Shown here piece after piece: positions 24,433-57,300 of a stretch of 64,000 nucleotides of DNA (position 1 is the stretch's first letter; every line of letters starts with the position of its first letter). The DNA is from Archangium lipolyticum. Its GTDB lineage: Bacteria; Myxococcota; Myxococcia; Myxococcales; Myxococcaceae. The notes under the pieces were generated by a model. The model was not told where the DNA came from and did not search any database. It saw nothing but the letters and a program-made list of their open reading frames with translations. Both the position numbers and the translations under genes were made by a program. The stretch lies in contig NZ_JANKBZ010000015.1 in the NCBI RefSeq assembly GCF_024623785.1, positions 186,001 through 250,000 of the forward strand, given 5' to 3'.

Positions 24433-25593
24433 TCAGGCCGTGGCCTGGATGAGGCGAACGGCGTCCTGGGTGGCGGCGAGGCTGTCGTGGCGGGTGAGGT
24501 ACATCTCGTTGCCCATGGCGCTGTGGAAGACGGAGGGCATCTCGCGATGCATCAGCAGCGCATCGCCGAGCTTCGCCACCAGCTCGGAGTGGGAGTAGCG
24601 GTAGCGTTTGGAGGCGCGCCGGGCGGTGTGACAGACGTGGTAGCGAGGCGTGTAACGGAAGTCGCGCACGTCATCGCCGGTGAGGATGCGGGTCCAGAGC
24701 CGGTACACGTCGATGTCGCACGCGTAGTTCATCATGTCCGTCATGTAGCCGCCGGGCGGACGCAGGTTGGCCTCGAGGGCGACGTAGCTGCCATCGGAGA
24801 GCCGGAAGAACTCGAGGTGGAACCAGCGCTCGCGCAGGCCGAGCGCGGCCACGGCACGGCGGCCGAGCGTCTCGAGCGCGGGAGGAATCTCCTTGAGGCT
24901 CCAGAAGGAGATGTCGCGCTGTTCGAGGACGACCTCCATGACGCCGTCGCTGTACTCGTGGCTGAGGCGGAAGACGATGTGGCCGTCGCGGTCCACGAGC
25001 CCGTCATAGGTGACGATGGTGCCGCGGACGAAGGCCTGGGCCACGTAGCCGGGGAGGGGCGCGGAGAGGGCGGCGTCGACGTCGGCGTCGGAGGAGACCT
25101 TGAAGGTGCGGGCGGCGCCAACACCCACGTCGGGCTTGAGGACGAGCGGGTAGCCGACCTTCGTGGCGAAGGCCTTCACTCCGGCGGCGTCCTTGACGGG
25201 GATGCCATCGGGGTGGGGGACGCCGGCATTCTTGAAGACATCGTGCATGCCGAGCTTGGTGCGCAGGCGGGCGATGTCGGCGGGGAGGAGGCCGGGGACG
25301 TGGAAGTCCTGACGGAGACGGGCCTCGACCTCGAGCCAGGTCTCGTTGAGGGAGTCGATGCGATCGATACGGCCATGGCGCCAGGTGAGGTAGCCGGTGG
25401 CGCGCAGGAGGGCGTCGTAGTCGTTGAGGTTGGGGGTGAAGAAGTACTCGGAGAGGGACTCGCGCAGCTCGTGGCGGAGGGAGTCGTAGGGGGTATCGCC
25501 GATGCCCAGGACATTGACACCGCGCTCGCGCAGGGCGGTGACGAAGTGGAAGAACTGAGGGGGGAAGTGAGGGGAGATGAAGACGACGTTCAT
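24433..25593 (-). CDS. ATP-grasp domain enzyme
   Basis: A 386-residue protein. An N-terminal nucleotide-binding-like fold (MNVVFISPHFPPQF) is followed by the ATP-grasp core: 'KVGYPLVLKPDVGVGAARTFKV' (nucleotide-binding Lys and Gly-rich loop, about 145-165), 'YVAQAFVRG', then the metal-binding stretch HLEFFRLSDGSYVALEANLRPPGG (Glu and Asn residues). These enzymes join a carboxylate to an amine or thiol through an acyl-phosphate. The actual substrates cannot be told. The ATG at 25593 begins the conserved domain, but no strong ribosome site precedes it. Nothing nearby indicates a biosynthetic cluster. It ends 6 bases from the convergent DUF2378 gene. Confidence 0.8.
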   Translation of the reverse strand: MNVVFISPHFPPQFFHFVTALRERGVNVLGIGDTPYDSLRHELRESLSEYFFTPNLNDYDALLRATGYLTWRHGRIDRIDSLNETWLEVEARLRQDFHVPGLLPADIARLRTKLGMHDVFKNAGVPHPDGIPVKDAAGVKAFATKVGYPLVLKPDVGVGAARTFKVSSDADVDAALSAPLPGYVAQAFVRGTIVTYDGLVDRDGHIVFRLSHEYSDGVMEVVLEQRDISFWSLKEIPPALETLGRRAVAALGLRERWFHLEFFRLSDGSYVALEANLRPPGGYMTDMMNYACDIDVYRLWTRILTGDDVRDFRYTPRYHVCHTARRASKRYRYSHSELVAKLGDALLMHREMPSVFHSAMGNEMYLTRHDSLAATQDAVRLIQATA

Positions 25594-25696
25594 GGGCGGG
25601 CTCGGGCGGGCCTCCTGCGCGACGGGAGCACCATAGCGCGACCCGGGACGCGGCCCACATTCAGGCCCGAGCGGAGGTGAGAACCCGCACACCCGC

Positions 25697-25799
25697 CCTC
25701 CCTCTCCCGCCGGGAGAGGGCCGGGGTGAGGGTACCCGGCCCTTGGGCAACCAACCGTGTATGCCCCCTCTCCCTCTGGGAGAGGGCTGGGGTGAGGGT
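25697..25799. repeat. Dispersed palindromic repeat doublet (copies R1 and R2)
   Basis: Two units about 67 bp apart, at about 25697-25735 and 25764-25799. Each consists of a CCCTCTCCC / GGGAGAGGG palindrome followed by a GGGGTGAGGGT arm. Related units occur at 26346-26449, 56692-56793 and 62400-62438. This is a REP/BIME-like intergenic element. Both units point the same way, opposite to R3/R4. Confidence 0.85.
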
Positions 25800-25842
25800 C
25801 TACCCGGACTGAACACGGGTGCTCCCGTCCCCCCGCCAGTGC

Positions 25843-26142
25843 TCAGGAGCCCGGGGCTCGTCCACCGAGCACGGGAACGAGCCGCTCGCGAACCTCCTTC
25901 AGGTATGCGGAGAGGCCCGTCTTCCCACCGCGCTCATCAAGCACCGAGAGGGACGTTTCCTCCAGGCATGCGCGCACGCGCTCCCCGTCACCTAGAGTGA
26001 GGGCCTCCAGGGCGACCTTGGCGTCTTTCTTGGCGCCATGCTCACGCGCGGTCAGTTGGTGTGCCTCGCGAACAGGATGAAAAGAGAGCCGCTGTCTCTC
26101 GGCTTCGAGCCGGGCCGCCTCCTCCGCGTTCCTGGGCTTCAT
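25843..26142 (-). CDS. Small hypothetical ORF beside the AAA ATPase remnant
   Basis: A 99-residue frame of charged, helical composition (MKPRNAEEAARL at the start), not recognised. It overlaps the tail of the ATPase remnant by about 100 bases in another frame, more than normal operon overlaps. It may therefore be a decayed partner gene, or the frameshifted end of the same remnant. No convincing ribosome site precedes its ATG. Function unknown; it may not be expressed. Confidence 0.4.
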   Translation of the reverse strand: MKPRNAEEAARLEAERQRLSFHPVREAHQLTAREHGAKKDAKVALEALTLGDGERVRACLEETSLSVLDERGGKTGLSAYLKEVRERLVPVLGGRAPGS

Positions 26143-26345
26143 GGCTCGCGGGCTCGCCCACCTTCTCCAGCCAGGACTCACCCACCGTGCTCCAGAACTC
26201 GCCAGGGCTCATCATGTCCTTCCAGCGCTCGAACTCGGGGTGGGCCGTCAGCTTCTCGCAGCGGGCGAAGCCGTTCTCCGCGAGCAAGGTCATCCGGACC
26301 TCCTTCGGGTCGAGGTAGTTCAGGATGAACGGCGAGTGGCTCGTG
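26042..26345 (-). pseudogene. C-terminal remnant of an AAA (AAA_21/AAA_15-type) ATPase
   Basis: The minus-strand frame reads TSHSPFILNYLDPKEVRM immediately downstream of repeat copy R3. It continues with 'TLLAENGFARCEKL', 'FERWKDMMSPGEFWSTVGESWLE' and ends at 26042. 'T.HSP..LN.L.PEEVR' followed by a GE(F/L)W stretch is the usual C-terminus of SMC-like AAA_21 ATPases. The Walker A and B parts are missing: the repeat abuts the gene precisely at this motif. An ATG at 26293 has a good AGGAGG site, but it is probably just the internal KEV codons (AAG GAG GTC). Confidence 0.65.
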
Positions 26346-26449
26346 GACCCTCACCCTAGCCCTCTCCCAGAGGGAGAGGGGACTTCCACAGCCGTGAACC
26401 TGGGACCTCCGATACCCTCACCCCGACCCTCTCCCAGAGGGAGAGGGAG
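26346..26449. repeat. Dispersed palindromic repeat doublet (copies R3 and R4)
   Basis: Two units about 68 bp apart, at about 26346-26380 and 26414-26449. Each has ACCCTCACCC (or close) leading into the CCTCTCCC/GGGAGAGG palindrome. The orientation is the reverse of R1/R2, so the 25.8-26.3 kb segment lies between inverted doublets. R4 ends 23 bases from the stop codon of ettA. Confidence 0.85.
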
Positions 26450-26471: not shown

Positions 26472-28151
26472 TCAGCTCCTCGTGAGCGGACGGTAGCGGA
26501 TGCGGTGCGGCTCCAGCGCCTCCGCCCCCAGCCGCTTCTTCTTGTCCGCCTCGTAGTCCTGGAAGTTGCCCTCGAAGAAGAACGCCCGGCTGTCTCCCTC
26601 GAACGCCAGGATGTGCGTCGCGATGCGGTCCAGGAACCACCGGTCGTGGCTGATCACCACCGCGCACCCCGCGAAGTTCAGCAGCGCGTCCTCCAGGCTC
26701 CGCAGCGTCTCCACGTCCAGGTCGTTCGTGGGCTCGTCCAGCAGCAGCACGTTGCCGCCACTCTTCAGCATCTTCGCCAGGTGCACCCGGTTGCGCTCGC
26801 CGCCCGACAGGTCCTTCACCCGCTTCTGCTGGTCCTGTCCCTTGAACGCGAAGCCCGCCAGGTACGCACGGCTCGGAATCTGTCCCGCACGGCCCAGGTC
26901 GATGTAGTCCAGCCCGCCGCTCACCTCGTCGAAGACGCTCTTGTCCCCGTCCAGCGCGTCGCGGCTCTGGTCCACGTACGCCATCTTCACCGTCTCGCCG
27001 ATGCGCAGCTCGCCCGCGTCCGGCTTCTCCACTCCCGTGAGCATCCGGAACAGCGTCGTCTTGCCCGCGCCGTTCGGCCCGATGATTCCCACGATGCCGC
27101 CCGGCGGCAGCTTGAAGTTCAGCTCGTCGACCAGCAGCCGGTCCCCGTACGCCTTGCGCAGCCCCTTGGCCTCCACCACCAGGCCACCCAGCTTCGGCCC
27201 GGGCGGAATCGTCACCTCGCCCGTCGGATCCCTCTTCTCCTGCGTCTGGTTGAGCAGATCCTCGTACGCCGCGATACGCGCCTTGCTCTTCGCCTGGCGC
27301 GCCTTGGGCGAGGCCCGCACCCACTCCAGCTCGCGCTTGAGCGTCTTCTGCCGCGCGCTCTCCGACTTCTCCTCCAGCTCCAGCCGCTTCTGCTTCTGGT
27401 CCAGCCAGCTCGAGTAGTTGCCCTTCCAGGGCACTCCCTCGCCGCGGTCCAGCTCCAGAATCCACTCCGCCACGTTGTCGAGGAAGTACCGGTCGTGCGT
27501 GATGCAGACGATGGTGCCCTTGTACTCCTTCAGGGCCTGCTCCAGCCACGCCACGCTCTCGGCGTCCAGGTGGTTGGTGGGCTCGTCCAGCAGCAGCAGG
27601 TCCGGCTTCTCCAGCAGAATCCTGCACAGCGCCACGCGGCGCTTCTCACCGCCGGACAGCTTCGTCACATCCGCGTCCCCGGGCGGCAGACGCAGCGCGT
27701 CCATCGCCATCTCCAGGGTCCGATCCAACTCCCAGCCGTTGCAGGCGTCGATGGCATCCTGCAACCGGCCCTGCTCGGCCAGCAGCTTCTCCATCGCCGC
27801 GTCGTCCATGGGCTCGGCGAACTTCGCGCTCACCTCGTTGAAGCGGTCCAGCAGCGCACGCACCTGCTTGAGGCCCAGCTCCACGTTGCCTTTCACGTCC
27901 AGCGAGTTGTCGAGCTGCGGCTCCTGTGCCAGGTAGCCCACACGTGCGCTCGGGTCCGGCTTGGCCACGCCGAAGAATTCCTTGTCCACGCCCGCCATGA
28001 TGCGCAGCAGCGTCGACTTACCGGAGCCGTTCGGACCGATGACGCCGATCTTCGCTCCCGGGAAGAAGGACAGGTAGATGCCCTTGAGGATCTCCTTGCC
28101 GCCCTTGACCTTCCGCAGGTCCTGCATGGTGAAGATGAAGTTCTGGGCCAT
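26472..28151 (-). CDS. ettA: Energy-dependent translational throttle protein EttA (ABC-F ATPase)
   Basis: A 559-residue protein with two ABC domains and no membrane segments. The first Walker A is GPNGSGKST (about residue 40), signature LSGGEKRRV, Walker [13 protein letters not shown]. An inter-domain linker with '[14 protein letters not shown]' and the Arg/Lys-rich [17 protein letters not shown] arm is typical of ABC-F proteins. The second Walker A is GPNGAGKTT, signature LSGGERNRV, Walker [13 protein letters not shown]. Length and the N-terminal '[16 protein letters not shown]' match EttA. It binds the ribosomal E site and gates translation according to the ATP/ADP ratio. The start ATG follows a GGAGG site about 13 bases upstream. 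Confidence 0.93.
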
Positions 28152-28352
28152 CGTGCTCTTTCTGCCTCCAACTCGGTGACGGGGACGGTGGCGGATAGCA
28201 GGGTGCCGCGGCGGGCTCAAGGCGCTCGGCCGAGCTCCCGCTCTTCCCGGACATGTCTTTCCCGGGCTTCCGCCTCTTCCGCGTGAGAACAGCCCGTACC
28301 ACGCGTCACGTCCTCGGAGTCCTCCCCCCTCCCCCGGAGATGACCTGCCCCC

Positions 28353-54375: not shown

Positions 54376-57300
54376 TCAGGAGGGAACACGGCCGACGAGC
54401 GCGAGGATGGTGTCGCCGTAGCGCTCGGCCAGCTTGGGGCCCACGCCGTGGATGCGTTGCAGCGCGGCACCATCGCGAGGGCGCGCGGTGGCGATGGCAC
54501 CGAGCACCTTGTCGGTGAGGATGCGGAAGGCGGGGACGCGCCGTTTGCGTGCCTCGGCGAGCCGCCACGTGCGCAGGGCCTCCACGAGTTGGGGCGAGGC
54601 CGTGCTCACACCGAGCGTCGCCCCGCTACGCCTGGAGCGCTCCAACGCCCGTGCCAGGGCCTCGCGGCCGCGAGGCGCCCGAGGCACCTCCACCCGCTCC
54701 GCCATGTCACCCTCGAACTCGTAGTCGTACTCGACCTCGGTCCGGGCCGGAGCCGAGCGCTTCCTCCTGCCTCCGGAAGCGGCTGCCTTGCGGCGCGACG
54801 TGCGGCGGCTTCCTCCGGCCGCGGAGGACGCCTTGGCCCGCGAGCCCCGGCGCTTGCGCGCGGGAGCCTCGTCCGCAGGCCGTGGCAGTTGTACCTGTCC
54901 CGGTGCGGGCTCGCGCGTCCTCCGGCCCTCGGGCGTGAGCGTCACGCGCTGGAAGGTGATGTTCTGCCCGTCCTTCTCGAAGGTGTCCTCGGACAGGCGC
55001 ACGAGCCCCGCCCGCACCAGTCCCCCGAGCAGCCGCTCGAAATCGCGGCGTGGGAGCGCCTCGCCGAACAGCTCCCGGTGAAGCCGGCCGGTGGCCTGGG
55101 CATCGCGCTCGTGGAGCGTCCCGAGGATGCGCGCGAGCGCCTGGGCCTCCGACGCGGAAGGCTCGCCGAAGCGCAGGGTGGCGCACGACTCGGGCGCGCA
55201 GACATCGCACAGGCCGCACGCCGCGCCCGTGTCCTGCACGTCACCGAAGTGCTCCACCAGGTGCCGCATCCTGCACCCGTGCGACTCGGCGTAGCGCGCC
55301 ATGTGCTCCAGCTGCGACTGCTTGTGCTCCCGCTGCGTCGTGTACGCGGCCATCCAGCCCGGCCGCCCGCGCTTCACGGACTCGTCCGGCGTCACCTCCA
55401 CGCCGCCGTGGATCCACAACTGCTCGAGCGCCTTGTCGAAGACCTCGGACTCCATGCGCACCCGCGCCGACAGCGCCTCCTTGGGCTCCGGCTCCTCGCG
55501 CGTGGCGCGGTAGATGCGCTCGAGCACCGAGGGCTCGGGGTAGTCGCGCTGGTGGAAGAACTCGTGCGTGCGCCGGTCGATGAAGGAGTGCAGCAGCACC
55601 GCGCGCGAGGGCTTCCCATCCCGGCCCGCGCGCCCCAGCTCCTGGTAGTAGCCCTCCACGCTCGCGGGCAGCGCCGCATGCACCACCGTGCGCACGTCCG
55701 CCTTGTCGATGCCCATGCCGAAGGCCGTCGTCGCCACGATGACCTCCAGCCGGCCATTGAGGAACCGCGTCTGCACCTCGTCGCGCTCCGTGGCACTCAT
55801 GCCCGCGTGGTAGGTGCCCGTGCGGAACTCCGCGCCGAGTTCCTCCGTGTACCGCTCCGCGTGCTTGCGCGTCGCCGCGTAGACGATGGCCGGACGGTGC
55901 GCCGGGTCCGCGAGCAGCTCGCGGATGGCGTCGGCGCGCTGGCTCGGATTGAGCTCGCGCACCTCGATGGCGATGTTGGTGCGCCGGAAGCCGTGGATGA
56001 AGGTGCGCGCGGGCGCGCTCCCCGTGCCCTTGAGCCCCAGCTGCTGGACGATGTCCCGCTGTACCCCCGGTGTCGCCGTCGCGGTGAGCGCCACGACCGG
56101 CGCCGGACGGAGCATCGGCAGCCGGGCCCCCAGCAGCCGGTAGTCCGGGCGGAAGTCGTGCCCCCACTGCGAGATGCAGTGGGCCTCGTCCACCGCCACG
56201 AGTGCCGGTGTCCGCCGGGCCAGCAGCTCCACGAAGCCCGGCACCCCCAGCCGCTCGGGCGCGATGAAGAGGAAGTCCAGCCTCCCCTCCAGGTACTCCG
56301 CGCACACCTGGCGCGAGGTGGCACGGTCTCGTCCCGAGTGGATACGCTCCGCCGCCAGACCGAGCGACTGGAGCCGCGCCACCTGGTCCTCCATCAGCGC
56401 GATGAGTGGGCTGATGACCAGGGTCGTTCCCGCTCGCGCCAGACCCGGCAGCTGGTAGCAGAGGGATTTGCCCGCCCCCGTCGGCATGACCAGCAGCAGG
56501 TCCTTGCCCTCCGTCGCCGCACGGCACACCGCCTCCTGGTACGGCCGGAAATCCGAGAAGCCGTACACCTCGTGCAGCAGTCCTCGCAGGGCGTTCGGCG
56601 GCGTGGGCTCGCGTGGCTTGCGCTCAGGTCGCGTGTTGGGCGCGACGAGGGTGAGGGACGGGCGCGCGGTGGTGCGCGGGGATTTGGGAAGACCCTCACC
56701 CTGACCCTCTCCCAGGGGGAGAGGGGATTCACGCGGAGCCAACCTGGGGGTCCGCGTACCCTCTCCCCGTCCCTCTCCCGGAGGGCGAGGGGTGGTGGGC
56801 GGCGGCATCGGCAGATTGGGCGGAACCTTTCCCACCACCTCGATGACGTAGGCCTCGATTCCCTTCAGGAACGAGTCCAGGTCTCCGCTGCCCCGCTCGA
56901 TGCGCTGCAGCCACGCCTCCCATTGTCCCGTCATCGCCGGGCTCTTCACGTCCGGATGCACCACCCGGATGAGCGCGATCCCCTTCTCCGTCGCCTCGAA
57001 CGACTTGCCCCTCCTCACCAGATAGCCACGGTCCAGCAGGGTCTCGATGATCGCCGCGCGCGTGGCCGGTGTCCCCAGCCCCGACTCCCTCATCGCGTCC
57101 GCCAGCTCCTTGTCGTCCAGCGTCCGCCCCGCCGTCTCCATCGCCGTCAGCAGGCTCGCGTCCGTGAGCCGGGGCGGCGGCCGCGTCCGCTTCGTCACCG
57201 GCTTCACCTCGCGCACCGAGCGCGCCTGCCCCTTCGCCAGCCCCGATGGCAACTCCTGCTCGTCCTCGGGCTCCTCCGCCTCCCCCTCCCCCTCCTTCTT

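Follow-up and report, generated by a model that had tools for sequence, protein, structure and literature searches.

Remnant of a two-gene, defence-like ATPase operon beside ettA in Archangium lipolyticum, very probably left by two deletions

A two-gene, defence-like operon between ettA and an ATP-grasp gene of Archangium lipolyticum has very probably been cut by two deletions to the tails of both its genes, with the flanking repeats older than the damage and the remnant likely inactive. The remnant lies in a stretch of 64,000 nucleotides (the window), in which a sequence-only reading had seen an ATPase remnant that may be a decayed defence locus; comparison with the intact gene pairs of relatives supports decay of a defence-like operon. 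By itself, the remnant is ordinary gene decay. It is more telling as a pointer to its intact relatives, a pair made up of an ATPase and a putatively TOPRIM-like partner that has a fixed address beside ettA and whose partner is unrecognised by Pfam.

Read along the minus strand, the window shows ettA, the repeat copies R4 and R3, the ATPase tail, the partner tail, the repeat copies R2 and R1, and the ATP-grasp gene. The conserved left border of this slot, ettA (26472..28154, minus strand), encodes an ABC-F protein (NCBIfam TIGR03719, 958.6 bits with a cut-off of 806.75). The conserved right border is an ATP-grasp-like gene (24433..25599, minus strand), named after a Pfam ATP-grasp_3 match (E 1.4e-4) that at 22.4 bits lies under the cut-off of 23.2. 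The other 5 genomes of the genus each have a best match to it at 89-97%.

The AAA_21 ATPase remnant (26138..26346, minus strand) comprises the C-terminal ~70 of 388 codons and is 91% identical to residues 319-388 of the intact ATPase of Archangium violaceum Cb vi76 (G004, NZ_JPMI01000165.1), whose residue numbering is used for the ATPase throughout. Residues 2-71 of its translation (P0001) match the ATPases of relatives with identity of up to 91%. The frame opens right behind a TGA within R3, reads GSTSHSPFILNYL, and has its first in-frame start codon, a Met, at 26293. Two early observations hold: the tail starts flush at the R3 edge, the frame beginning after the R3-internal TGA, and the fragment has neither a Walker A nor a Walker B region. 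Searched by itself, it matches no Pfam family, and its AAA_21 label derives from its intact homologues. At the junction of deletion 1 (26346..26347, minus strand), R3 is joined to ATPase codon ~319. Pairwise alignment with G004 shows 50 identical nucleotides ending with R3, followed by a gap of ~978 bp. The deletion thus extends from the edge of R3 that faces the operon to a point inside the ATPase gene, with 0-1 nt of sequence common to both ends. The missing upstream part of the ATPase did not turn up elsewhere in the source genome: with residues 1-318 as the query, there were just four matches, each 40-44 residues long and lying in the Walker A region. P0001 and its partner counterpart P0002 (the frame of 25843-26181) occur there in one copy each.

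The second remnant (25843..26142, minus strand) is a 99-codon open frame that is 80% identical to residues 151-242 of the G004 partner. The suspicion that this frame belongs to a partner of the ATPase was correct; it is the C-terminal part of the adjoining partner gene, here called TOPRIM-like on the strength of a structural model discussed below. Comparison with a further Archangium genome, G005, suggests that deletion 2 (junction 26139..26142, minus strand) kept the partner start codon and joined it in frame to codon ~152, with ~450 bp missing, although the alignment program places the gap 18 nt before the start codon. The window thereby retains the start codon and the last ~90 codons. Deletion 2 is separate from deletion 1 and does not lie at any repeat. 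In the alignment, the partner remnant is without the conserved Glu13 and Asp111-x-Asp113, and with the Walker regions gone as well, the remnant is probably dead. Partner residues 1-151 have no match in G000, G002, G003, and G006, in a search that did not include a positive-control genome. A Pfam match of the partner tail to ASL_C2 (E 0.049, 14.5 bits with a cut-off of 27.3) was taken as chance. The partner of G005 (L075:6473-7030) is itself without residues 13 to ~80, Glu13 included, and remains in frame beside a complete ATPase. Within the genus, this is another case of the nuclease-like gene being shortened, distinct from that of the window.

A search of 96 family genomes, counting that of the window, gave matches to P0001 in 32 and to P0002 in 28. 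The 20 matches of P0001 with at least 68% identity outside the window's genome were treated as close homologues, and the surroundings of all of them were fetched. In 20 of 20, the gene directly after ettA encodes the ATPase (361-404 aa), and the partner comes next. The ATPase is complete in every case and the partner (242-262 aa) in 19, the shortened one being that of G005. An intact short protein conserved in relatives, which would have spoken against decay, is absent from this set. The close homologues show, by gene order, an ancestral layout of ettA, ATPase, and partner, followed by the ATP-grasp gene either directly or past other genes. Among the more distant P0001 matches, 11 of 18 were fetched with 9-14 kb of sequence and none has an ettA orthologue; one of them, L243, has a weak 29% match to another ABC-F-like gene.

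G004 is the most direct guide to the ancestral state. It has the window's gene order with both genes complete, and both repeat doublets are present at equivalent sites flanking the operon. By parsimony, the repeats therefore predate the decay. The proposed insertion of the repeat within the gene is therefore not supported. The companion proposal, that the rest of the gene was lost between repeat copies, is not supported either, since deletion 1 runs from the R3 edge into the gene with 0-1 nt common to its ends.

The slot between ettA and the ATP-grasp gene varies in content. ORFs were listed in 15 slots and 10 extra proteins were scanned. In G005, the ATPase and partner follow ettA and the ATP-grasp gene is ~30 kb away; the sequence fetched from this intervening stretch (G005:C1 4567000-4596000) covers its two ends only. 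Judged by the ATP-grasp gene, the nearest sister is G006 (97%); it too is without the operon, and its slot holds a glycosyltransferase and, on the other strand, an endonuclease/exonuclease/phosphatase-family gene. A methyltransferase-like gene fills the slot of G002, and the slot of G003 is 176 bp only. Eleven operon-free slots have both borders: five are empty (124-231 bp; G003, G024, G035, G036, and G038) and six hold other genes (G001, G002, G006, G013, G014, and G037). In G037 (L130:1834-4088) and G020 (L093:6273-8350), the slot contains a different and clear HEC-01A/HEC-01B pair, with E values of 8.8e-98 and 4.2e-25 for the former and 2e-97 and 1.3e-26 for the latter. The slot of G020 carries both kinds of pair. 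Outside the family, an intact operon in a Planctomycetota MAG (L153:2025-4839) lies near an ORF that by eye resembles a phage-type integrase, a hint that the pair can travel.

Two doublets of a palindromic repeat (33-34 nt) flank the operon and face each other, as the sequence-only reading had described with coordinates right to within a few bases. Scored against one 33-nt pattern, R1 (25700-25732, plus strand, the outer copy before the ATP-grasp gene), R2 (25766-25798, plus strand), and R4 (26415-26447, minus strand, the outer copy after ettA) have 0 mismatches, and R3 (26348-26380, minus strand), the inner copy whose operon-facing edge forms one end of deletion 1, has 1. Counterparts stand at equivalent sites in G002, G004, G005, and G006 for R1 and R4 and in G002, G004, and G005 for R2. 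The four facing arm pairs (I1-I4) are 85-94% complementary. The repeats are far beyond chance, because with up to 3 mismatches allowed there are 8 matches in the window (R4 read on the other strand being one of them) against 0 in 100 dinucleotide-preserving shuffles, and the whole source genome has 538 (248 + 290) against 0 for a reversed control pattern. Direct doublets at 25700-25798, 26348-26447, and 56693-56791, as well as in L074, L125, and L141, have start-to-start distances of 65-67 nt, and other doublets of 59 nt; some doublets look as though they had been copied as a unit of ~100 nt. Of 30 other copies fetched, most are single.

R1-R4 match the published TM (earlier PIT) intrastrand-triplex motif in sequence, with triplex formation putative. 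They follow its layout of stem, loop, stem, 2-nt linker, and third strand RGGGTGAGGG, and each of the four stems folds. In Table 1 of PMC4666352, E. coli copy 1 has the stem, linker, and third strand of R1. The main text of that paper does not name myxobacteria; relative to the motif described there, Archangium differs in having 264-596 copies per genome, some of them in direct doublets ~59-67 nt apart. This count, at up to 2 mismatches, holds for each of the six genomes of the genus (group g1). At the same threshold, there are 0 copies in 16 of 16 genomes of the Corallococcus group (g5) and 0 or 1 per genome in g19. Across the family, at least one copy of the repeat is found in 25 of 96 genomes, and it is absent from 16 of 26 genera. 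Its spread is patchy, with counts elsewhere of 182 in G001, 127 in G008, 142 in G010, 322 in G051, and 246 in G080.

The codons that remain bear on how the remnant is to be read. Compared with G004, dN/dS is ~0.09 for the ATPase remnant and ~0.07 for the partner remnant, with no further frameshifts; values between G004 and G005 are similar (0.075 for the ATPase and 0.11 for the partner). Selection on these codons does not appear relaxed; the loss must therefore be recent, or else the 99-codon frame remains in use. A recent loss is the simplest reading of the low dN/dS and the absent frameshifts. That the partner remainder is a working short protein under selection, for example an immunity or regulatory fragment, is improbable. 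In its favour are the native start codon, the in-frame joint, and the low dN/dS, but one in three random deletions falls in frame and most of the measured divergence is probably older than the deletion. Furthermore, the short form is found in none of the 20 close homologues, the shortened partner of G005 missing a different stretch. An assembly or sequencing error that joined unrelated pieces has an even slimmer claim: although the assembly is a draft in 75 contigs and a 538-copy repeat sits at the junction, the flanking sequence is colinear with that of the sister G006, the ATPase and partner tails are in ancestral order, and the doublets sit at ancestral sites, an arrangement that a repeat-mediated misjoin would hardly leave. 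Equally hard to credit is that the repeats are REP/REPIN sequences moved by a Y1 (RAYT) transposase, with the doublets marking a composite mobile element that carries the operon. The repeats are palindromic, dispersed, and sometimes in doublets, and the genome has three Y1_Tnp genes; however, none of the three has a repeat (up to 4 mismatches) in its surrounding 3.2-kb locus, and 18 operon loci of other genera (L076-L093) have no adjoining repeat at up to 3 mismatches. REP sequences have a GTAG or CGTC tag at one end (PMC3733652), and neither tag occurs inside R1-R4. A GTAG is present on the other strand one base outside R2 and also at the G005 copy, and is absent at the G002 and G004 copies.

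To the loss of the operon by two deletions, a role of R3 would add a cause, in that a putative hairpin or triplex at R3 may have brought about deletion 1 via replication stalling or slippage, a mechanism proposed for TM motifs in E. coli. This is possible but doubtful. The end of deletion 1 is flush with the R3 edge, and in E. coli variability is reported to be higher around TM sites (Holder et al. 2015, PMC4666352). On the other side stand deletion 2, which is not at a repeat, and a count of breaks (at least 150 bp) between the source genome and G006. The count covers two stretches of 263,567 and 520,000 bases (~784 kb of a 12.6-Mb genome, 613 kb aligned), with genes called by an ad hoc GC-bias rule and with 18 repeat-free intergenic regions wholly inside breaks (0 with a repeat) set aside beforehand. 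Among intergenic regions, 3 of the 18 that contain a repeat are broken, counting the present locus, as are 38 of the 184 that contain none (odds ratio 0.77, p = 1), the 18 repeat-bearing regions being a small sample. Other length cuts point the same way, with 3/14 versus 25/113 (at least 100 bp) and 1/9 versus 13/68 (150-600 bp). In the Corallococcus group, moreover, 9 of 16 genomes carry the operon and all 16 are without the repeat; because the operon comes and goes in this repeat-free group, the repeats are unnecessary for turnover of the slot. The contact between deletion 1 and R3 is suggestive as a single case, and the repeats as a driver of slot turnover were rejected as unsupported by the break counts and by repeat-free Corallococcus. 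Two breaks of 0.6 and 1.4 kb relative to G006 (C1:379158-379822 and C1:417522) lie 24-34 nt from a repeat. At base resolution, the locus documents a deletion that ends at a TM repeat, and the break count adds a small negative result on the notion that such repeats break genomes generally.

With the variable segment removed, genus labels require 5 changes on the operon tree, the minimum for 6 groups, and the operon tree has 7 of 18 splits in common with the ettA tree. On these sequence trees, the operon fits a long residence in the slot with repeated loss. Exchange between genera is still conceivable, because neither g1 nor g7 forms a single clade there. The operon genes have a third-position GC of 0.59-0.75, below several slot neighbours, with which alone it was compared. 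This composition would be unusual for fully resident genes and argues somewhat against a purely vertical history.

The 20 ATPases (L074-L093) share a mean pairwise identity of 89% over residues 1-43, 17% over residues 44-140, and 70% over residues 141-388, while the partners average 57%. The hypervariable segment 44-140 follows the Walker A helix and precedes the remainder of the protein, and part of it overlaps the least certain part of the ATPase model. The segments are still recognisably related, with z above 6 against shuffles in 26 of 45 pairs within a genus and in 71 of 145 pairs between genera. Among the 30 best middle-segment pairs, G020 pairs only with another genus (g7), and some segments look, by sequence, to have been exchanged between genera. 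A tentative view, and one we hold with less than even confidence, is that the pair forms an old and mostly vertical innate-immunity locus beside ettA, in which the engine of the ATPase stays almost constant and the sensor segment 44-140 is under strong diversifying pressure with occasional exchange between genera, and which is lost once a threat has passed. The segment is a natural place to seek the phage trigger.

The intact ATPase of G004 belongs to Pfam AAA_21 (7.7e-32) or AAA_15, and HEC-01A is the best of 152 PADLOC families (2.5e-35). Its predicted structure resembles PtuA (Foldseek best 8ee4, E 6.4e-15) and SMC heads. Its scores against NCBIfam MADS3 (108.7 of 420 bits) and PtuA (60.6 of 500 bits) are far under the cut-offs.

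The partner is less readily classified. It matches no Pfam family, and the G004 partner also has no PADLOC match up to E 5. In TOPRIM domains, a Glu follows the first strand and an Asp-x-Asp follows a later strand. The partner has a comparable arrangement in its model (pLDDT 88.8) and alignment: Glu13 follows the strand 6-12, and Asp111 and Asp113 follow the strand 105-108. Glu13 is kept in 19 of 20 homologues and both aspartates in 20 of 20. The model also aligns broadly with 6nk8, the TOPRIM domain of OLD (Z 6.6 and rmsd 4.6 over 171 aligned residues, for a 198-residue target), a level of similarity (Z 6-8.6) that is common to Argonaute MID domains and lumazine synthase, so that unrelated Rossmann-like folds score equally. 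Together, the 6nk8 alignment and the placement of Glu13 and Asp111-x-Asp113 in the model suggest that the partner is a TOPRIM-like nuclease. A Foldseek search with the partner model gave nothing under 0.001. Three PDB sequence matches to the partner profile (E 0.55-0.69) were taken as chance.

By analogy, the intact pair is likely an anti-virus gene pair and would work like the ATPase/TOPRIM defence pairs HEC-01, PARIS, and the OLD family. The ATPase would sense a trigger of infection, perhaps via its variable insert, and would then unleash the metal-dependent, TOPRIM-like nuclease. In the lineage of the window, the module may no longer have been worth keeping. The two deletions would have removed it, the larger one ending, by chance or helped, at the putative hairpin/triplex repeat R3.

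Of the known systems, HEC-01 (PADLOC "Hma-embedded candidate" 01, composed of an HEC-01A ATPase and HEC-01B) is similar in having two adjacent, co-directional genes, an AAA_21-type ATPase followed by a small partner; its name appears in a table of PMC10855318. It differs in that the match between partner and HEC-01B is weak and limited to some members (6 of 20 match one model, PDLC04196, best 3.6e-4), and both genes are truncated in the window. PARIS (AriA + AriB), discussed as class 4 OLD in PMC10568477, has its ATPase and TOPRIM nuclease on separate genes, as described in that paper, an arrangement that the present pair would share. The AriA model matches the G004 ATPase (1.1e-30), with the best HEC-01A models scoring above it; in contrast to PARIS, the 20 partners have no AriB or DUF4435 match at E up to 5 within the HMMER filters. 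OLD-family nucleases, GajA of Gabija, and PtuA of Septu and retrons differ from the present pair, in which the two domains sit on two genes, but appear, from the model of the intact ATPase, to share with it the ABC/SMC-head ATPase fold.
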